Shown piece after piece: positions 10,827-51,631 of a DNA stretch of 64,000 bases. How positions within the stretch are numbered: position 1 is the stretch's first letter; each line of letters starts with the position of its first letter. Under the pieces are notes generated by a model. The model was given only the letters and a program-made list of their open reading frames with translations. It was not told the origin of the DNA and did no database searches. This stretch comes from Lewinellaceae bacterium (GTDB lineage: Bacteria; Bacteroidota; Bacteroidia; Chitinophagales; Saprospiraceae), in assembly GCA_024644235.1 (NCBI GenBank), contig JAHELJ010000005.1, positions 1 through 64,000 on the forward strand. The letters run 5' to 3'. The position numbers were made by a program, and so were the translations under genes.

Positions 10827-13800
10827 TTAGAAATCCAGGCCAAGGGCGAAGTGTAGTTTCGGTTTCTGCACGATCCGGGTCTCAAGGCCCCAGGCATAAT
10901 CCAGGCGGAGGAAATAACCAAAAAGCATCGTGCGGACACCAACACCATATCCCACTACCAATGGGTCACGGTAATAATTTACTTTAAGTCGTACAGTGGG
11001 AGGGTTTTCGAGATGGAGGATATTGATCGGATTGTCTTCATCAAAGGGAGACACGCCCTCCCATGCCGCCCCCACATCGGCAAAACCCACCACTTGGAGG
11101 TGGCGAAGGAATGAAATTTTGATGGGTCGGCGAGAAATGTATTTGAGAAATGGTATACGAAGCTCGGCATTGAGCAAGGCAAATGTGGATCCATTTCTGA
11201 TATTATAATCGAAACCTCTCAAATTGGGACTAATTGTCCGGTAAGCGAAATTACCGGTGCTTGGCTGAGGAATCTCCTGATTAAACATTGGAATTAGCCA
11301 ATTGTCGAGTCCTCCAAGGAAATATAGTATTCGTTCCGACCCGAATGATGTGGAAGCAGCAAATCTTCCAGCTAGAACGCTATGCTTGGCAAAGTTCAAA
11401 TAGTGGCGGGCATCAGTTCCTACCACCGTCATGAATCCCTTCGAAAAACTGAAATCCAGTGGATCAAGAGAGAGGTCAAATTTTTTCAACACTTCTGTAT
11501 AGACCTTGAAACGAGTGCCTGATCTGATATTAATATCGATGTCCAGTGAGTTGTCAAAAACATACTCGACTCGCAATCCGACTCTTTGGTCTTCCAGGTC
11601 AGGATTGTTGAGGGATGTCTGATCAGACGCTAGAAAAGTGATCTTATCCTGACGAAGGGTTGCCGTGGCTCGAATGCTGTTGTATACGTCCAAGGGATAC
11701 CTTACCCCATATTGACCAAGTAGTACCGTGGTTCTAGATCGTTGGCCTTCGAAGCCGTTGCTGGATTGGTTCTCAAGAAGTGACTTCCGGTATATCGCAT
11801 AACGCCTGTCCAGGCGATTCTTTTTATCATCAAAGACCAAGAAGAACTCCGCTCCATTGAAACTGGTGGGGATGCGTACTCCTCCTTCAAAAACATAGTC
11901 CTCAAACAAATCTTTGAAATTTGCCTTGATAAGAATGCCCAGGGGAGTTGGTTCAAATTCTCTTTTAAATCCAGCATAACTGTCCAATCCACCAAACAAC
12001 TGGCTATTGTCCATATTGGTACTAAGCGAATGCATTCTAAACTTTAATTGGTAGGGAACAATTCGTAGTCTGTTTATTGGTACAGTTTCTTGATTTGCGC
12101 TTGGCTGATTCTCCACCACTTCTGTGGTAGCCAGTTTTGCTTTCGACAATACATCCAAGATCTCTGTGACTGCCTCTGTCTCCATATCGTCAAACTCGGA
12201 CTGGAACCTATATTCTCTGTCATCACCACTGGAACGAATCACTTCCTCAGCAGGCCTATTCTCCTCCGGTCGATTTCTGGTTGGGGGCCTATTCGGACTC
12301 TTGGTTTCATCAAGCATTTGGGCATGCACGCTACTACCAGTTGTAGAACTGGAAAGAGGGAAAAGAGATCGCTCAAAAAGATGATAGTCATCCTTTATCT
12401 GGTGGCCCTCCACAGCCGTACCCCTTGGTATGTTGATGTCATATAGCAAAATATTCTGCAACAGATTCGTCTCAGACGTGGTGGCTGCCCGATATTTCTT
12501 CTCACTTAATTGTTCTGTCGCAGCTATCAGACTATCGGGCAAATCAGCTAAAGATTCACGATCAATAACTTCTTCTGTGCTGTCGCTGAATGTCACCTTC
12601 ACTTTTGATTCATCGACATAAGAAGAGATTTGGCTAATCACCCGGTTTGTAATGCCTCGGTGTCCGGAGAGATAGGTGATTTGATTTTCGCCGATACTTA
12701 CCGGTGATCGCAGGTTGTGCTCTTCATCTGTAAGTTGATACAGTTGCAGTGCTTCGTCTTCCAGCGCCAGGAAAAAGATGTTGAAGTTTTCAAACGGTAG
12801 TACAGTATCAACTGAATTAATTGACTGCTTGGCGTCGGGTCTATTGGAACTAAAAAGGATTCCCGGTACATTGTCTATCATTCCCATTCTAATGTCGAGA
12901 TCATCATAGATGTCATCAGTGAGTTGGGTTGATTGTCTAGTGTTTGTTGTATAATAAAAGAGATTTACCGCACCTTCGGATAATGCTGAAAAAATGAGTT
13001 CCTGCTCACTCATCACCTCCATGGAATATATTCGATCATAGCGCTCAGGCAAAATTTGCTCTTGGATTTGTCCTGTGTTCAGATCTTCGATTCGCAGAGT
13101 GATTTTATCTCTGTATTCATATAAAGCATAGAGCACATCATCGGAAGGGTGCCATGCCACCATCGGATAGTTGTAATCGGTCTGCTGTACGTTGTTTCGA
13201 AAGCCATGTTTGAATAATTTCAGGCTCTTGCCTGACTGTTGATCTCGGATTATGATCCGTGTTTTACTGATTTGGTTGTCGACAATAGCGAGAAGGCTAC
13301 CGGAGGCATTATATCTTACTTGACTCATCGGCACCCGCTTCTTTCTTCGATAGGTTAATTGCTCACCGTCGTCTGCTGCTGCAAATAGTTCCTGTTCTTT
13401 AGCATAGCGGGCAGAGAAATAGTTCTCCCATTTCTCGGTGATGTCCTCAAACTCAACTCCGAATACATACAAGAATGCATCTTCGATACTTCGATTAATT
13501 CGGGTGAGATAAAGTAAATTTGATATCTCTGATCGTCCGTAGGTAAGTCCGATATAATACCAAAGGGATTGCCCAACAATATCAGGGTAGATGTTGTGCA
13601 TTCGTTTGAAGCTGGTCTTTTTTTCAGTGAGGAATAGATTACGTAGTTCGTTATCATTTTGAATGTTCCAAAATGATCCAACGTAGTTTACTAAACCTGT
13701 TTGAAACCAACTGGGGACATTTCCTGATACTGAGTTCTGAACGATCTCTTGAAGATTGGAACCAAAAAACATGCTGTTTAGAAACACCTCCGCTATACCC

Positions 13801-14234
13801 TTGCGAATCTGTCTGCGTAACTGCTCATGGTCTCCATCAAAATATACAAATATGCGATTGCCTTCGATTTTGGTTTTACCGACTCGGCTGATAAAAGTTT
13901 CGTCGTTTCCTATGTTGCTTTGCTTCAGGTCTGCCAGATCTGAAAAGACAATAATTTCAATCTTGTCATTGATCCGGTGCTCAATGATATCCAGGATCTC
14001 ATCATGATCTTGTTCTGCAAGTTTGACGGTAGAGACACCGTGATTTCTGGCTTTACCATACCAGTATGTGATAAAGTTTTGACTTTCATAGAGAAGCCAC
14101 TGATCAAAATCATCGTGATACTGTATGCGATTTTTCCCGTATTCAACCTCAGAGACCTGCGCCGTACCCAATAGCCCGATCAGGAGGAAGAAAACGAAAA
14201 AAGAATATTTTATGATCTTGTGAGTGATAATCAT
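10827..14234 (-). CDS. Large outer-membrane protein: peptidase-like N-domain, TolB-like propeller, C-terminal beta-barrel
   Basis: A 1135-aa exported protein with a signal peptide in residues 1-26 (ends GTAQ). Residues about 30-290 resemble a gluzincin MA-like domain (NVPSWFQTGLVNYVGSFW corresponds to the usual P.W..EGLAEY), but the HExxH helix is absent. About 300-530 carries PD40/TolB-type blades (FSSNRPD, ITYLSGHRG). A low-complexity linker follows, and 700-1135 looks like a surface-antigen (BamA/TamA-like) barrel ending in Phe. It heads a leftward phzF unit. Role unknown; possibly an outer-membrane translocation or assembly factor. Confidence 0.72.
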   Translation of the reverse strand: MIITHKIIKYSFFVFFLLIGLLGTAQVSEVEYGKNRIQYHDDFDQWLLYESQNFITYWYGKARNHGVSTVKLAEQDHDEILDIIEHRINDKIEIIVFSDLADLKQSNIGNDETFISRVGKTKIEGNRIFVYFDGDHEQLRRQIRKGIAEVFLNSMFFGSNLQEIVQNSVSGNVPSWFQTGLVNYVGSFWNIQNDNELRNLFLTEKKTSFKRMHNIYPDIVGQSLWYYIGLTYGRSEISNLLYLTRINRSIEDAFLYVFGVEFEDITEKWENYFSARYAKEQELFAAADDGEQLTYRRKKRVPMSQVRYNASGSLLAIVDNQISKTRIIIRDQQSGKSLKLFKHGFRNNVQQTDYNYPMVAWHPSDDVLYALYEYRDKITLRIEDLNTGQIQEQILPERYDRIYSMEVMSEQELIFSALSEGAVNLFYYTTNTRQSTQLTDDIYDDLDIRMGMIDNVPGILFSSNRPDAKQSINSVDTVLPFENFNIFFLALEDEALQLYQLTDEEHNLRSPVSIGENQITYLSGHRGITNRVISQISSYVDESKVKVTFSDSTEEVIDRESLADLPDSLIAATEQLSEKKYRAATTSETNLLQNILLYDINIPRGTAVEGHQIKDDYHLFERSLFPLSSSTTGSSVHAQMLDETKSPNRPPTRNRPEENRPAEEVIRSSGDDREYRFQSEFDDMETEAVTEILDVLSKAKLATTEVVENQPSANQETVPINRLRIVPYQLKFRMHSLSTNMDNSQLFGGLDSYAGFKREFEPTPLGILIKANFKDLFEDYVFEGGVRIPTSFNGAEFFLVFDDKKNRLDRRYAIYRKSLLENQSSNGFEGQRSRTTVLLGQYGVRYPLDVYNSIRATATLRQDKITFLASDQTSLNNPDLEDQRVGLRVEYVFDNSLDIDINIRSGTRFKVYTEVLKKFDLSLDPLDFSFSKGFMTVVGTDARHYLNFAKHSVLAGRFAASTSFGSERILYFLGGLDNWLIPMFNQEIPQPSTGNFAYRTISPNLRGFDYNIRNGSTFALLNAELRIPFLKYISRRPIKISFLRHLQVVGFADVGAAWEGVSPFDEDNPINILHLENPPTVRLKVNYYRDPLVVGYGVGVRTMLFGYFLRLDYAWGLETRIVQKPKLHFALGLDF

Positions 14235-21045: not shown

Positions 21046-22104
21046 ATGGATTCCAATAAATCCTGTCTTTCGAAATGGTACGTTTTCTTTGTTGTCTGGG
21101 CCCTCATAATACCCAATTCTATTGGGGCACAATCAACTGTAAACACACCAGATCCGGTTAACACAGATAATGTAGCGACATTTTTTGACTTTGTCTCACA
21201 AGAAGCTTCGAAGATTATATTTAAGCTTTCTATTGATTCCATTCTGAACTCTAGGAACAATGACAGCACCTTTGCAGGATCAATGGTGGTGATAAAACCT
21301 GGTGGTGATAGTGTTTCCTTCAAAACGAACTTCTCTACTCGTGGTAAGTTTCGAAGGACAAATTGTGATTTCCCCCCCCTCAAACTCGATTTAAGTAAGA
21401 ATCAGCTTGCCAGCTTTGGATTATTATCTGAATACGATGAATATAAACTAGTCACTCATTGCCTGGATGATCATAGCCAACGGGATCTTGTCCTTAAAGA
21501 ATTCCTTCTCTATGAATTATTCCACAATCTTACTAATCACAGTTTTAAAGCGACTCTTTTTCCGGTAACCTATTCAGATACCTCTTCCCAGATTCACACG
21601 ACATCCTATGCGTTTATTATTGAGAGTAACAAGGAACTTGCAGATCGATTAGGTGGTAATTACTGTGATTGTCCTGATTTAGAAATCGGTGATTTAGATG
21701 CATTTCATTTCGAATTAATGTGTCTATTTCACTACATGGTCGGCAACAGAGATATGCATGTGGGGCGACAGCATAATCTCAAACTGCTCAGATCGCAAAA
21801 GACCGAGAAGCTAATTTCGATTCCTTATGATTTTGATTTTTCTGCTTTTGTTGGGGCTCCTTACATCTATCCAACTTATGAAAATAAATTGCTGGTAGAT
21901 AGATTCTATCTTGGATCTAGTGAAAATCAAGAAGTAATGAATTCAGTTTATCAAGTTTTTCTGGAAAAGAAAGATTCTTTATTGAATACCATTGAGGAAT
22001 TTGATCTACTCCCAAAATTTGAGCGTCGCTTGTTGATAAAATATCTTAAGCGCTTTTATCGCGACCTGGAAAAAGGTTCTTACCAGCTAGAATACCAATA
22101 CTAA
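21046..22104 (+). CDS. Secreted CotH-kinase-like hypothetical protein
   Basis: A 352-aa exported protein: signal peptide through about residue 28 (SIGAQ). The middle shows STRGKFRRTNCDFPPLKLDL, then YKLVTHCLDDHSQRD, and later MVGNRDMHVGRQHNLKLL and ISIPYDFDFSAF. The order of a basic N-lobe segment, an NRD...HN element and a YDFDFS metal-binding-like motif parallels CotH/FAM20-type atypical secretory kinases. Membership in that superfamily is my inference; the family is otherwise annotated hypothetical in Bacteroidota. It stands alone between alkaline phosphatase and mazG. Confidence 0.6.
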   Translation: MDSNKSCLSKWYVFFVVWALIIPNSIGAQSTVNTPDPVNTDNVATFFDFVSQEASKIIFKLSIDSILNSRNNDSTFAGSMVVIKPGGDSVSFKTNFSTRGKFRRTNCDFPPLKLDLSKNQLASFGLLSEYDEYKLVTHCLDDHSQRDLVLKEFLLYELFHNLTNHSFKATLFPVTYSDTSSQIHTTSYAFIIESNKELADRLGGNYCDCPDLEIGDLDAFHFELMCLFHYMVGNRDMHVGRQHNLKLLRSQKTEKLISIPYDFDFSAFVGAPYIYPTYENKLLVDRFYLGSSENQEVMNSVYQVFLEKKDSLLNTIEEFDLLPKFERRLLIKYLKRFYRDLEKGSYQLEYQY

Positions 22105-22111
22105 TCTTAGG

Positions 22112-22447
22112 TTACTTCAATTTAGGGTTGTTCTTGTGCCGAAGATGGTCTCTTGTATGCTTTTTTTTCAGGTTCTTCTCTATCGCTGTTGTTAGATCGA
22201 TTTCTGTTTGATTAGCAAGGCATACGATTACAAATATTACGTCAGCAAGTTCTTCTGCCAGGTCGCTCTGGTCTTTTCTATTAACAGCTTCCTTATAAGA
22301 CTGTTCACCATACATACGTGCCATTACACGGGCCACTTCCCCAACTTCTTCCATTAGTATTGCTGTGTTGGTCAGCTCCGAAAAGTATCGTACCCCAAAA
22401 TCTCTAATCCATTGATCTACGGTCGATTGCAGCTCCTTTATGGTCAT
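22112..22447 (-). CDS. MazG-like nucleotide pyrophosphohydrolase
   Basis: A 111-aa single MazG/dUTPase-alpha-NTP-PPase domain. The divalent-metal Glu/Asp residues are in LMEEVGEVARV and LAEELADVIFVIV. Such enzymes hydrolyse (d)NTPs, often non-canonical ones, to monophosphate and pyrophosphate. It overlaps dtd by 4 bp and ends the SRAP-like/dtd/mazG unit. A separate larger MazG could exist elsewhere in the genome. Confidence 0.9.
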   Translation of the reverse strand: MTIKELQSTVDQWIRDFGVRYFSELTNTAILMEEVGEVARVMARMYGEQSYKEAVNRKDQSDLAEELADVIFVIVCLANQTEIDLTTAIEKNLKKKHTRDHLRHKNNPKLK

Positions 22448-22896
22448 TCTCTATATTTTGAATCGATCAAAATAGTAACTGGACCATCATTTGTCAACTG
22501 TACTTTCATATCAGCACCAAATTGTCCAACTGAAATCTCTCGACCAATGGCTGCTGCCAATGACCTTATCATTTCATTATAGAGAGGAATTGCTTGCTCA
22601 GGTTTTGCGGCTTTTATGAAAGATGGCCTATTCCCTTTTTTAGTGCTGGCATAAAGTGTGAACTGTGAAATCAGAAGTATATGTCCATTGATGTCGGTAA
22701 TAGATCTATTCATACGGTTTTCGTCATCAGGAAAAATTCTTAGTTGTCCGATTTTCCTTGTCAGCCATTCGATATCGTTTGGTGTATCTGAGTGCTCAAT
22801 ACCCAATAGAATCAACATGCCTGGCCCGATCTCAGCAATTACACGATTTCCAACCTTAACTCTAGATTCTGATACCCTTTGGACGAGTGCTCTCAT
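22444..22896 (-). CDS. dtd: D-aminoacyl-tRNA deacylase
   Basis: A 150-aa DTD, which hydrolyses D-aminoacyl-tRNA and glycyl-tRNA(Ala). It starts MRALVQRVSESRVKV and carries the two chiral-proofreading motifs SQFTLYA and NDGPVTI (family NxPVT with an extra Gly at x). The length is normal. It overlaps the SRAP-like gene by one base and mazG by 4 bp, so the three are translated from one message. Confidence 0.97.
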   Translation of the reverse strand: MRALVQRVSESRVKVGNRVIAEIGPGMLILLGIEHSDTPNDIEWLTRKIGQLRIFPDDENRMNRSITDINGHILLISQFTLYASTKKGNRPSFIKAAKPEQAIPLYNEMIRSLAAAIGREISVGQFGADMKVQLTNDGPVTILIDSKYRE

Positions 22897-23564
22897 CAGA
22901 ATAGCGAAGGCATTATAGTAGTGGGTTGATGAAGAATAGCCTTATTAAAGCCTCGAATCAAGAGTTTATTTGTAACTCTGTATTTCTCCAAAGGTTGCAG
23001 GCTGGTTTTGTTCAGAATTTCAATCAGATTCTCTACTTTTTCCTCAACGATCCATTCGCTCCATCTATTATACTCCATGCAGACCGGTTCAACCGATGAA
23101 AATTTCTCAATAGTGTGGCGAGATTTTCTTACGATAGCGCAACAATTAAATTCATTTGATACCTCATCGTAATCATAGACACCAGGTATCATTAAAAATG
23201 AGTCTTTCACTGGCAAGAACCTGTATGGTATCTTATCCTGATCTTGTAGGTAAAAGCTATCCACTAGTATCAAACACCTTCTAGTCCTGAAAGACATTCG
23301 GAAAGTAGGTTTGGTATGAACATTCGTCTGTTCTACCACCGGAATATCTAACGCTCTGGTTCCACTTCTTCTGAAGCCCCAAGTTGATCTTTCAATAGTC
23401 CCTTTTCCTGAGGTAAGCATGGATATGGATTCTCCTGGCTGGATATTATAGCTGCGGACCAGCGAAGCATTGAGTTCAATTCCACCAAGAACCTTTACAA
23501 GATCTTCTCTTTGCAAAATCGACGATAACCTCATTAGATTTTTGATCATTACTCTTCCTGTCAC
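22896..23564 (-). CDS. SRAP (YedK/HMCES)-like protein lacking catalytic residues
   Basis: A 222-aa protein with the SRAP layout: MTGR at the start, SYNIQPGESISML (family RYNIAPTQ), STWGFRRSG (family WGL.P.W), NVHTKPTFR (family NARAET..), RRCLILVDSFYL (family RRCL.PADGFYEW), FLMIPGVYDY and a final VCMEYNRWSEW. The abasic-site nucleophile Cys2 is Thr, the FYEW Glu is Leu, and the H of HDRMP is missing. It may be a pseudo-enzyme or DNA-binding remnant. GTG 23564 is chosen for the MxGR start; ATG 23549 is possible, since a -7-like TATATTTG lies at 23564-23571. Confidence 0.7.
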   Translation of the reverse strand: MTGRVMIKNLMRLSSILQREDLVKVLGGIELNASLVRSYNIQPGESISMLTSGKGTIERSTWGFRRSGTRALDIPVVEQTNVHTKPTFRMSFRTRRCLILVDSFYLQDQDKIPYRFLPVKDSFLMIPGVYDYDEVSNEFNCCAIVRKSRHTIEKFSSVEPVCMEYNRWSEWIVEEKVENLIEILNKTSLQPLEKYRVTNKLLIRGFNKAILHQPTTIMPSLF

Positions 23565-23576
23565 AAATATAAACAT

Positions 23577-24005: not shown

Positions 24006-25082
24006 ATGAGGAAAGTGGAAAAAACAAATAGAGCGGTCTTGGTTTGGATGAAGCTGGGCCTACTACTCATATTTCTTCAAATTATCATAGGAGGAGTTAC
24101 ACGCTTGACGGGCTCGGGACTTTCCATTACCAAATGGGAGGTGGTAACTGGCGCTATTCCTCCTCTGTCAGATAGTGCTTGGGATAAAGAATTTGAAGCA
24201 TATCAGCAAACTCCTCAATTCCAAAAGATCAATAGAGACTTTACATTATCTGAGTTCAAGTTTATTTACTTCTGGGAATACTTTCACCGTCTTTGGGCTC
24301 GTATGATGGGGTTCGTGTTTGTGTTCCCACTAATGGTATTTCTTTGGAAGGGATGGATCCCACGTAATGTATTGAAACGACTAATAGTGGTATTCGTGTT
24401 GGCTGGACTAGCGGCGATTTTCGGATGGATTATGGTAGCTAGTGGACTAAGTGAAAGACCTTGGGTGAATGCGTATAAGTTGAGTATTCATTTGGCACTG
24501 GCTCTGCTGGTGCTAGGATATTTGTTGTGGACATATCTACTGACGAGATTTCCTCTGTCAGGAATTGTTAGGAAAAGAAGTACATACATACTGCTTGTTA
24601 TGATATCAGCACAAATCTTTCTTGGAGCATTGATGTCAGGAATGAAAGCCGCTTTAATTTACCCAACTTTTCCAGACTATGATGGAAAATGGATACCTGC
24701 GGTTTTAACCAGCTTGAGCAACTGGAGTGTGGATAACTTGGTGTACTATGATAAATCAGCTTTTGCGCCAGCTCTGGTTCAGTTCGCTCACCGGAATTTA
24801 GCTTATGTATTGATTTTCAGTTTATTATATGTAATTTTTCGGGAAAAATGGGTTTGGAAAAGAAAGGGAATGGGCTGGCCTTTAGCAATGTTAATAATTT
24901 TGTTGATAATACAAATTATACTAGGTGTAAGCATTTTAGTAAACAGTATAGGCAGTATACCGGTTGCCAGTGGTGTATTACATCAAGCGGTGGGAATATT
25001 GATTTTATGTAGCGCACTCTACTTGCATTACTTCAACATAGATAGTACTGATGCCCTTGTTGGAGATCAGGTCACGAGATAA
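24006..25082 (+). CDS. ctaA: Heme A synthase (COX15/CtaA)
   Basis: A 358-aa polytopic membrane protein with eight hydrophobic segments. It oxidises the C8 methyl of heme O to make heme A for cytochrome oxidase. The N-terminal IIIGGVTRLTGSGLSITKWEVVTGAIPP is a strong COX15 signature. Histidines predicted to bind heme occur in EYFHRLWAR, LSIHLALA, QFAHRNLAY and VLHQAVGI. It starts ATG 24006 and precedes the alpha/beta hydrolase by 32 bp. No ctaB or oxidase subunit gene is in the window. Confidence 0.95.
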   Translation: MRKVEKTNRAVLVWMKLGLLLIFLQIIIGGVTRLTGSGLSITKWEVVTGAIPPLSDSAWDKEFEAYQQTPQFQKINRDFTLSEFKFIYFWEYFHRLWARMMGFVFVFPLMVFLWKGWIPRNVLKRLIVVFVLAGLAAIFGWIMVASGLSERPWVNAYKLSIHLALALLVLGYLLWTYLLTRFPLSGIVRKRSTYILLVMISAQIFLGALMSGMKAALIYPTFPDYDGKWIPAVLTSLSNWSVDNLVYYDKSAFAPALVQFAHRNLAYVLIFSLLYVIFREKWVWKRKGMGWPLAMLIILLIIQIILGVSILVNSIGSIPVASGVLHQAVGILILCSALYLHYFNIDSTDALVGDQVTR

Positions 25083-35166: not shown

Positions 35167-37467
35167 TCAATCCCCTCTTTTTTGAGGCGCTTGGGTCAAA
35201 ATAAAGTTGTCGTAGAGCAAACAGTCTCCCAATGTGTGGTATGCTGTGCTCTCGGTGGGTTTGATCAACAAAGAGCTTGCAGCTGTTTTCATGCCTTCCA
35301 CGAGCACCTGGTGTATGGTCCAACCTGGGCTTGCCTCGAACAAGAACGAGCACCTAACCCATCCATCCATCACATCAGGTTCACTTCCCGACTGCAGCTT
35401 TTCCTCTTTTATCAACGTGCCGATATCGTCAAAGGCCTGGTAATGGATCTGGGGCATTCCCGAATAGACGGGATCTATAAACAACCAAAAGCTGAGCTCC
35501 ATTTGAGTGAGCTGAGGCACGGTGATCTGTCCGCTGAACAGGGTGTCGCCACGTGAAAACGTATACGATTCAATGCCGCAGAACCGGGGAGATTGCTCTG
35601 TTCGATCCAAAGAGGGAGCCAGTACCGGGCCAGCACCCTGGACGACGCAAATTTCACGCTGGCAATCCAAACTGTCTCGCAGCATATGATATTGAGAAAC
35701 CAAAGAGTCGTTGCTGTTTTCGAACGCTTTCAAATCAAGATGACCTAATGTGATATAATCATCAGACCATAGTAGCCGAGACCGGTCAACCCATTTTTTT
35801 TCTTCTGGCAAGAGTGCGCTTTTGTTCGAAACCAGAAGCAATATCGGACTGTCGTTCATATCTTTTAGCCGGCTCTTCGTAATACGATCGTCACTGATCA
35901 TTTGGATGCTTGAGAGTGATTGGCTCAAAGACGGCCGGGAAGCAGTGGATTGAAGCAACGGAATGCCCGTGTGATAGGCACACTTAAGTGCTTCTTGATA
36001 CCCAGTAAGATCACGCTCGAAGGTCAACTTATCTGTTCTTATAGCGACCAAGGGCAATGAGAATATCGCCTGATAGTCAGCCGGATCTATATTGGCTTCT
36101 TTGAATCTTGCCAGATAGTCGTCGTCAGTTCTCTCCAGTTTATCGTTTTGATGTACCAGATTCTCAGTAGTGTTTACAAAGAATGATGTGCCATCAAACC
36201 ACCAGGATAGTAAAGCAAAGCCAATGAGCATCGCAGCAGGGTAAGGAAACTGTTTATGCCTTAATTTCTTGTAACTCATATAAACAGTGACCGCTGCCAT
36301 CACATTTATGACATAGTAAAAGACCCAGGAAAAACGACCTAAAGCACGAAGCTGTTTAAGGGGTGCAATCAAGTCTGGTATGAATTGTAATCCCCATTTA
36401 AAAGGGATACACATTGAAAACAGGAGAAGAAGAACCGACGCCCAGAGGTAAAATTTTTGGTTTTCACGCATTTGGTATATGGGAGCAATTTTGAGGGAAC
36501 GATTCAGAATATTGTGGAGATATCGAACGGCTGCAACCACGCATACGAACAGAGGAACAAATCCAATGTATGATCGACCCTCCCATTCGATCCTTATGTC
36601 GAATAGGTTTCCAATAACCTGATTAACCACTGAGTAATGGGGCAAGAAAACACTCCAGAAATTGGCGTGATAGGTGTAAAAGCCATAGGGTGAAACAGGA
36701 CGGTCAATAACCCCATCTGAGATTCCCATCCAAGCTTGGAAGAATACCAGAGGAGCGAGAGCCAGGACGGGCAACGCCCAACGCTTCTTAATGAATGCTA
36801 TCGGCTCCCTACGCTGATTTATGGCTTTACTCATCCAATATGCCAATAGAAATAAAGTGAATGTGGCAAGAAAATACATGTGCAGGCCGCCAACGAATAC
36901 ACCAGTAAGAAAAAGAAGGATGCTACGGGGTAATCCTGGCCTATCCTCGTATAAAATCAGGATATACCAGATCAGAGGAATCACAAAGAGGTGGGACAGG
37001 CTGATGTGTCCGTGCATTCTTGACCATTGGGGAGAAAGAAGGATAATCGCCAGAGCGATCATTGCAGAATACCAAGAGGGCATTTCAAATCTTCTTAGAA
37101 TCTGATATAGCAACAGAACAGCCAAAACAACCCCTGCCAGAACACTGAGATTGATCAGTGCAATAGAGTGACTGGCCAATGGAAACAAGTGATCATCAAC
37201 CCAATTGAGCAACAAAGCATATAATGGATGACTGTCCGTGTACAATAGGTTTTCTCCGTATGGATAGTTAAATCCAGAAAACCTCAGTCCTTGATCATAC
37301 TTTAAATAAAACGCAAAAAGAAAATAGTTTTTCAAGCCATCACCCGACTTTGAATAAAGTACTCCATTCGGATGTTGGAACACCTGCGAAAACCGCATGA
37401 CCAGAATGGCCAGAGTAGCAATGACCAGAATAATTTGGGGAAAAACTTTAGAGCGGATCACATTCAT
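35167..37467 (-). CDS. Polytopic membrane protein, glycosyltransferase-C-like, with C-terminal sandwich domain
   Basis: A 766-aa protein with about 11 membrane segments in the first 460 residues, with SGDGLKNYF after the first segment, resembling GT-C/YfhO-like lipid-linked sugar transferases or uncharacterised Bacteroidota membrane proteins. The C-terminal 300 residues are soluble, ending in a beta-sandwich-like region (GWVRCSFLFEASPG, YDNFILTQ). ATG 37467 (MNVIRSKVFPQIIL) is preferred to TTG 37506. Substrate and activity unknown. Confidence 0.7.
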   Translation of the reverse strand: MNVIRSKVFPQIILVIATLAILVMRFSQVFQHPNGVLYSKSGDGLKNYFLFAFYLKYDQGLRFSGFNYPYGENLLYTDSHPLYALLLNWVDDHLFPLASHSIALINLSVLAGVVLAVLLLYQILRRFEMPSWYSAMIALAIILLSPQWSRMHGHISLSHLFVIPLIWYILILYEDRPGLPRSILLFLTGVFVGGLHMYFLATFTLFLLAYWMSKAINQRREPIAFIKKRWALPVLALAPLVFFQAWMGISDGVIDRPVSPYGFYTYHANFWSVFLPHYSVVNQVIGNLFDIRIEWEGRSYIGFVPLFVCVVAAVRYLHNILNRSLKIAPIYQMRENQKFYLWASVLLLLFSMCIPFKWGLQFIPDLIAPLKQLRALGRFSWVFYYVINVMAAVTVYMSYKKLRHKQFPYPAAMLIGFALLSWWFDGTSFFVNTTENLVHQNDKLERTDDDYLARFKEANIDPADYQAIFSLPLVAIRTDKLTFERDLTGYQEALKCAYHTGIPLLQSTASRPSLSQSLSSIQMISDDRITKSRLKDMNDSPILLLVSNKSALLPEEKKWVDRSRLLWSDDYITLGHLDLKAFENSNDSLVSQYHMLRDSLDCQREICVVQGAGPVLAPSLDRTEQSPRFCGIESYTFSRGDTLFSGQITVPQLTQMELSFWLFIDPVYSGMPQIHYQAFDDIGTLIKEEKLQSGSEPDVMDGWVRCSFLFEASPGWTIHQVLVEGMKTAASSLLIKPTESTAYHTLGDCLLYDNFILTQAPQKRGD

Positions 37468-37514
37468 TTTCAGGGGAGCCTCCCGATCTAAATGTAAGCC
37501 TTTCAAGAGATATA

Positions 37515-51534: not shown

Positions 51535-51607
51535 GGTACCTTAGCTCAGTTGGTAGAGCACAGGACTGAAAATCCTGGTGTCCCCAGTTCGATTCTGGGA
51601 GGTACCA
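51535..51607 (+). tRNA. tRNA-Phe (GAA)
   Basis: A 73-nt cloverleaf: acceptor GGTACCT/AGGTACC, D arm GCTC/GAGC, anticodon stem CAGGA/TCCTG with loop CTGAAAA (anticodon GAA), T arm CCCAG-TTCGATT-CTGGG and discriminator A. The 3' CCA is not encoded. It is the only RNA gene I find in the window. Confidence 0.97.
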
Positions 51608-51631
51608 CAAAAATAAACCAAAAAACACTTC

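Follow-up and report, generated by a model that had tools for sequence, protein, structure and literature searches.

Among proteins of the SRAP family, the closest described systems are YedK of E. coli (structures 6nua, 6kcq and 8d2m) and the SRAP domain of HMCES (5ko9, 6oeb). In the accessible sections of Aravind et al. 2013 (PMC3765255), the SRAP Cys is called absolutely conserved and the Asn, Glu and His conserved. According to the accessible sections of a mutational study of YedK (PMC9436759), the protein forms no crosslink without Cys2, the E105A and E105Q variants are the most severe of the mutants, H160A or H160Q slows crosslinking about 10-fold, and N75A has a modest effect. Listings of the mostly open-access literature on SRAP, HMCES and DUF159, and on SRAP in Saprospiraceae, showed no description of a catalysis-free SRAP. 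The inactive RecA- and UmuC-like SOS proteins ImuA and ImuB (PMC3765255, accessible sections) are an earlier case of paralogues that lack catalysis yet are retained in DNA repair, but they belong to other protein families and no link between them and the gene described here was found.

The window, by which we mean the whole stretch of 64,000 nucleotides analysed, contains an SRAP-family ORF on the minus strand at 22896-23576. Its product shares with YedK the predicted fold, the order of the motifs and the Arg4, WG, Asp101 and Tyr/Phe104 columns, but it lacks Cys2, Asn75, Arg77, Glu105, His160 and Arg162 and is only 12% identical. The predicted fold is also like that of the HMCES SRAP domain, again without the catalytic residues of the family. 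Canonical Saprospiraceae SRAPs such as L016 and L020 occupy the same genomic place and are about 23-32% identical to the window protein, but they keep MCGR, NAR, FYEW and H.RMP; the canonical SRAP of this COX15-SRAP-dtd-MazG locus is the likely evolutionary source of the window gene. In the following, codes beginning with g (g1, g134) denote genera, those with G denote genomes (G000 being that of the window), and those with L denote loci or sequence rows.

SRAP membership and the start of the gene

The ORF encodes a true SRAP-family protein. Its match to Pfam PF02586 (SRAP) has an E of 3e-18 and a score of 66.6 bits, the cut-off being 27.1, well outside what chance would give. All six members of the subfamily described below hit this family (best 1.8e-21), and profile-profile comparison with four canonical SRAPs by hhalign gave an E of 1.6e-21. 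NCBIfam returned no match for the window protein, and phmmer with this protein alone against the PDB gave weak matches, among which the SRAP structure 2f20 (E 0.26) stood below rows for CREB-binding protein. AlphaFold2, supplied with an alignment of 41 sequences that includes canonical SRAPs (the window's protein, three further subfamily members and 37 SRAPs from viral contigs), produced a model with a pLDDT of 89.4 and a pTM of 0.86. The model aligns with YedK 6kcq over 198 residues (Z 23.5, rmsd 2.4, at the 12% identity given above) and with HMCES 5ko9 at Z 22.8 and 20% identity. All 21 Foldseek matches in the PDB at E<=0.001 are SRAP structures (Z 20.2-23.5), the unnamed ones being assigned to SRAP in the accessible part of PMC3765255. 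When the alignment held just four subfamily sequences the prediction failed (pLDDT 32). The fold thus depends on homology that the larger alignment brings in, and the hhalign and Pfam results support that homology. The earlier note had recognised an SRAP-like layout; homology searching keeps the protein inside the family, and the Pfam match and the structural comparison with YedK bear that assignment out.

The longest ORF and the coding sequence proposed here differ at the 5' end, with the following features:

22896..23534, minus strand: coding sequence of the pseudo-SRAP from the proposed start, giving 212 aa (MRLSS...LF), with its stop codon at 22896-22898
23535..23576, minus strand: in-frame extra stretch MFIFVTGRVMIKNL of the longest ORF, with VTGR within it at 23553-23564
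23564..23571, minus strand: TATATTTG, within the over-long ORF, resembling a Bacteroidota -7 promoter element

Orthologues from g134, a second genus of Saprospiraceae, begin with the pattern M[KRQ]R[LF]S (L034 MKRLSS, L035 MRRFSC, L036 MQRLSS, L037 MRRLST), while L033 is truncated at its 5' end and its N-terminus is out of view. A stop codon lies immediately 5' of the initiator Met in L034 and L037 and one codon earlier in L035 and L036. Because these ATGs sit right after, or one codon after, a stop, the window start was placed at their counterpart, Met15 of the longest ORF (MRLSS, base 23534); Met10 is a possible alternative. The 212-aa version from the proposed start matches Pfam SRAP at E=2.7e-18. 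The stretch MFIFVTGRVMIKNL has no counterpart in L034-L037 and probably lies outside the homologous domain, and TATATTTG within the over-long ORF resembles the consensus of the Bacteroidota -7 box, as a candidate promoter element. Residues 5-8 of the longest ORF are VTGR (GTG ACA GGA AGA), upstream of the homologous N-terminus, and residue 1 of the AlphaFold2 model pairs with YedK residue 3. From the orthologue starts and this alignment it follows that the Cys2 slot is absent and that no Thr replaces Cys2. The change of MCGR to MTGR proposed in the earlier note is therefore dismissed, having rested on a wrong start.

A conserved subfamily at the ancestral SRAP locus

The genes surrounding the pseudo-SRAP gene are as follows:

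24006..25082, plus strand: COX15/CtaA (Pfam PF02628, E=6.4e-82), the divergently oriented neighbour by which the ancestral SRAP locus is recognised
22444..22896, minus strand: dtd, D-aminoacyl-tRNA deacylase (Pfam PF02580, E=7.6e-58)
22112..22447, minus strand: MazG-type nucleotide pyrophosphohydrolase (Pfam PF03819, E=4.2e-15), overlapping dtd
21046..22104, plus strand: function-unassigned protein of 352 aa, convergent to MazG, matching neither Pfam nor NCBIfam

Many Saprospiraceae have the order COX15 - intact SRAP - dtd-MazG. At that site, all six subfamily members are accompanied by dtd and MazG, and three (window, L034, L036) by COX15 in the fetched flank. Since the subfamily occupies the same COX15-SRAP-dtd-MazG place, the window gene is the positional orthologue of the intact locus SRAP. 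The eight neighbouring ORFs include dtd, MazG and COX15, and no SOS-linked context (LexA, DinB, ImuB, DnaE2) was found among them. ORFs resembling the 21046..22104 product were seen by eye at the g134 loci L033-L037. Elsewhere in the window, two long minus-strand ORFs (10827-14234, 1135 aa; 35167-37506, 779 aa) have no Pfam match at E<=0.001, and a tRNA-Phe(GAA) gene at 51535-51608 on the plus strand is the sole tRNA gene found by ARAGORN.

With the window protein as query, five g134 genomes scored 94-109 bits, and the next best of the 398 sampled family genomes scored 73.5. The profile A1, built from these six genes and thus matching them by construction, places the gene in five of the six g134 genomes; the sixth, in which no gene was found, is 85% complete in about 910 contigs. 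The window's own genus is represented in the set by its own genome only. Searches of an order sample (396 genomes) and a phylum sample (395 genomes) at E<=1e-30 yielded no further subfamily member, returning besides the window's own gene just G089 and G124, whose genes are canonical. The five g134 proteins are 29-31% identical to that of the window, and L033 and L035 are 74% identical to each other; the next nearest relatives, at about 23-32%, are mostly intact SRAPs. The reading frame is open in all six members over the part seen (L033 being cut at the 5' end). The earlier note had left room for a lone odd gene, or for close relatives with an intact Cys2; the occurrence in g134 establishes a conserved subfamily instead, and none of the four g134 genes (out of five) with a visible N-terminus has Cys2. 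A sequencing error or single oddity is ruled out by the open-frame orthologues in another genus.

The subfamily comes out as a single clade with an SH-aLRT of 99. The second SRAPs of g1 and g134, each represented by one row, are likewise sisters (SH-aLRT 99). The tree is a quick one with long branches; the five checked columns were excluded from it, and the join of the subfamily clade with the g66 pair carries a long-branch warning. Because the subfamily clade and the sister second SRAPs both fit it, a single loss probably preceded the split between the window's genus and g134.

In the window (TGATG) and in L036 (TAATG), the SRAP stop codon and the dtd start codon share one base; in the remaining four members the distance between them is 2-12 bases. 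Joint expression with Dtd and MazG is therefore likely, and the pseudo-SRAP would likely be made together with them. The same arrangement would suit a decaying gene retained merely as a leader cistron of dtd-MazG by translational coupling. However, we consider this improbable, given that 26 columns are invariant across the six sequences, that the frame has stayed open in all of them, and that in the pair L033/L035 pN (0.157) lies far below pS (0.75), the synonymous sites being saturated so that no ratio is stated. In that pair the SRAP protein is also more conserved (74% identity) than dtd (61%) and MazG (64%); in the older pair L034/L036 it is less conserved than its neighbours (40% vs 55% and 61%). 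In g134 the subfamily gene is under purifying selection and not decaying, which rules out a recent pseudogene. For the window's own lineage, the open frame and the shared invariant residues suggest selective maintenance.

Residues lost, kept and newly invariant

The active-site motifs of canonical SRAPs are replaced in the window protein as follows:

23331..23339, minus strand: VVE, replacing the NAR motif (Asn75-Ala76-Arg77 of YedK)
23316..23318, minus strand: His73, invariant in the six subfamily members and not conserved in canonical SRAPs
23244..23255, minus strand: FYLQ, replacing FYEW (Glu105 lost)
23085..23099, minus strand: SSVEP, replacing H[DN]RMP (His160 and Arg162 lost), with a new Glu149 that is invariant in all six members

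In the alignment with YedK, Cys2 faces a gap, Asn75 and Arg77 correspond to Val66 and Glu68, Glu105 to Leu96, and His160 and Arg162 to Ser146 and Val148. The window protein thus has neither a Cys as second residue nor the active-site Asn, Glu and His (V66, L96, S146). The three losses listed in the earlier note (Cys2, the FYEW Glu and the HDRMP His) all stand, FYEW having become FYLQ and the His a Ser, but its list was too short, as Asn75, Arg77 and Arg162 are gone as well. A shortening of H.RMP by deletion was dropped as an explanation, the alignment having no gap there.

For the whole subfamily, comparison was made at 31 reference columns with at least 97% conservation in 68 canonical rows, L033 being left out for N-terminal columns. 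Every subfamily member counted lacks the canonical residue at 12 of these (C2, G3, A39, W67, I74, N75, R77, E79, E105, W132, H160, R162). At another 13 (M1, R4, W61, G62, K84, F87, R95, D101, Y104, W106, P115, P164, W175) no more than one member deviates. The chance that C2, N75, E105 and H160 all land among the 12 lost columns is 0.016, a modest value. Newly invariant in the six, and not conserved in the canonical rows, are P65, H73, P117, R136 and E149, with R139 present in five of six. By mean net charge the subfamily (+2.7 over five proteins, of which one is at -7.5) cannot be told apart from the canonical proteins (+1.9, n=53).

The reading that we favour, with some reserve, is that the resident locus SRAP has lost its chemistry and kept its fold, and is now maintained by selection as a protein that does not crosslink and whose pocket has been remodelled. 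Most likely it binds nucleic acid or a nucleotide-like ligand non-covalently; the window protein has probably acquired a different job. The Cys2 nucleophile, Asn75, Glu105 and His160, and alongside them the two conserved arginines 77 and 162, would have been lost before the window's genus and g134 diverged, while the fold was retained and an intact second SRAP stood elsewhere in the genome. With the N-terminal Cys absent a thiazolidine crosslink would be impossible, and a covalent thiazolidine adduct with AP-ssDNA is predicted to be absent. Pro65, His73, Pro117, Arg136 and Glu149, with Arg139 in five of six, would have remodelled what is putatively the pocket, and the product may be made jointly with Dtd and MazG.

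Methionine aminopeptidase leaves the initiator Met in place when Arg, Lys or Gln comes next, and since one of these is the second residue here, a retained initiator Met is expected. An AP-site lyase or crosslinking activity through the N-terminal amine might nevertheless persist, as YedK C2A makes a Schiff base and cuts AP-DNA in the accessible sections of PMC9436759. The same sections give C2A E105Q a lyase rate 25-fold below that of C2A, and with Glu105 lost in all six members such a Schiff-base fallback is expected to be weak; we regard its persistence as very improbable. A new catalytic activity in the old pocket, acting through His73, Arg136, Arg139 and Glu149, would explain why these residues are invariant (Arg139 in five of six) among proteins only 29-31% identical to the window's and not conserved canonically. 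However, their positions come from the alignment, and they are drawn from six sequences of which two are 74% identical; new catalysis appears unlikely.

A further alternative is that the dead enzyme still uses the SRAP groove to bind DNA, abasic or single-stranded, without a covalent link, thereby shielding such sites or regulating the intact second SRAP. The predicted SRAP fold, the columns of the Arg4 equivalent, WG, Lys84, Arg88, Arg92 and Arg95 (kept in all or all but one), the intact SRAP available for regulation in the window genome and the DNA binding still reported for blocked YedK E105Q and H160Q (PMC9436759, accessible sections) are all consistent with such a role. However, the Arg77, Arg162 and Trp67 columns are lost in all six members, net charge is not raised, and the g80 and g22 genomes searched have a degraded SRAP with no intact partner found; the role is conceivable, if doubtful. 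The loss of both Arg77 and Arg162 speaks against DNA binding in the ordinary SRAP manner, as judged from the alignment, while the loss of Asn75 alone would say little by analogy with YedK, in which the effect of N75A is modest.

Graded loss and second SRAP copies in Saprospiraceae

Among 163 distinct family SRAPs of both types from 65 genera, collected by similarity searches rather than as a random sample, 32 (15 genera) lack at least one of Cys2, Asn75, Glu105 and His160. His160 is lost in all 32, Glu105 in 20, Cys2 in 16 (with the N-terminus of L033 additionally out of view) and Asn75 in 14. All four are missing from nine sequences, and the three that are visible are missing from L033. COX15, dtd or MazG lies near 28 of these 32 degraded SRAPs, and parsimony on the tree gives five changes for Cys2, four for Asn75, six for Glu105 and five for His160. 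The nesting of the losses, which are not dated events, suggests that His160 went first; because in YedK the E105A and E105Q changes are the most severe and H160A or H160Q slows crosslinking about 10-fold, this would have been a mild first step. Seven sequences flagged as degraded by a text pattern (L031, L119, L189, L198, L201, L202 and L204) were reinstated, the alignment showing Cys2, Asn75, Glu105 and His160 in them.

Several other variants were seen. In the near-complete g80 genomes carrying L174, L184 and L185, the sole SRAP found keeps Cys2 without Asn75, Glu105 and His160. In g22 (L179, L181, L296, L297) the sole SRAP found starts MPTRFSF, with Pro replacing Cys2, and in L179 and L181 the alignment shows Glu105 present and His160 lost. 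L295, L299, L300 and L302 belong to neither of the two main types; they are further divergent ORFs that resemble SRAP, and some of them have no canonical motifs.

The second canonical SRAP gene that the earlier note had thought worth looking for is present in the window genome (G000, 97% complete), where it lies on another contig (E=1.9e-74) with MCGR, NARxE, YYEW and HDRMP intact. All six g134 genomes likewise have a second SRAP with C2, N75, R77, E105 and H160 intact. Second copies were surveyed in 33 genomes, or 32 once G322, which has no degraded copy, was set aside. A second SRAP of the intact type accompanies the degraded copy in 20 of the 32 (19 checked at five residues, the G275 copy ending at a contig edge before the His); no intact second SRAP was found in 12, including G068, in which the second match belongs to another, divergent type. 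Two further g22 genomes also lack an intact second copy, their sole SRAP being the degraded Pro2 type. By comparison, 37 genomes whose main SRAP retains all four residues (linkage to the locus genes was shown for 31) include none with a further intact SRAP; one of the 37, G089, has a divergent SRAP-like second ORF. With genera taken as independent, catalytic loss is associated with a second intact SRAP (10/15 vs 0/35, Fisher 3e-7; g68 was entered as 0 and the mixed genera g36 and g102 as 1, with the single rows L013, L075 and L141 set to 0), while a tree-based test of that link, with five independent pairs (one on supported branches), is not significant. In three g80 genomes, which are 99% complete and in 2-5 contigs, the only SRAP is a degraded one, and a second copy is therefore not a precondition for loss.

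More tentatively, a covalent trap for DNA lesions may have been converted repeatedly and by degrees at a fixed locus (His160 first, next Glu105 and Cys2, and Asn75 last), often with a second intact SRAP, ending in the rebuilt invariant pocket of the window protein with a new ligand or activity tied to house-cleaning of the Dtd/MazG type; this broader scenario is one that we hold as a possibility rather than an expectation.

Collectively, an SRAP annotation need not imply AP-site capture, as there is a selected subfamily without the N-terminal Cys, with intermediates in related genera. The subfamily and these intermediates offer separation-of-function variants, arisen in nature, for the YedK/HMCES active site, and with them the order of steps by which an enzyme is stripped of its chemistry becomes directly testable.
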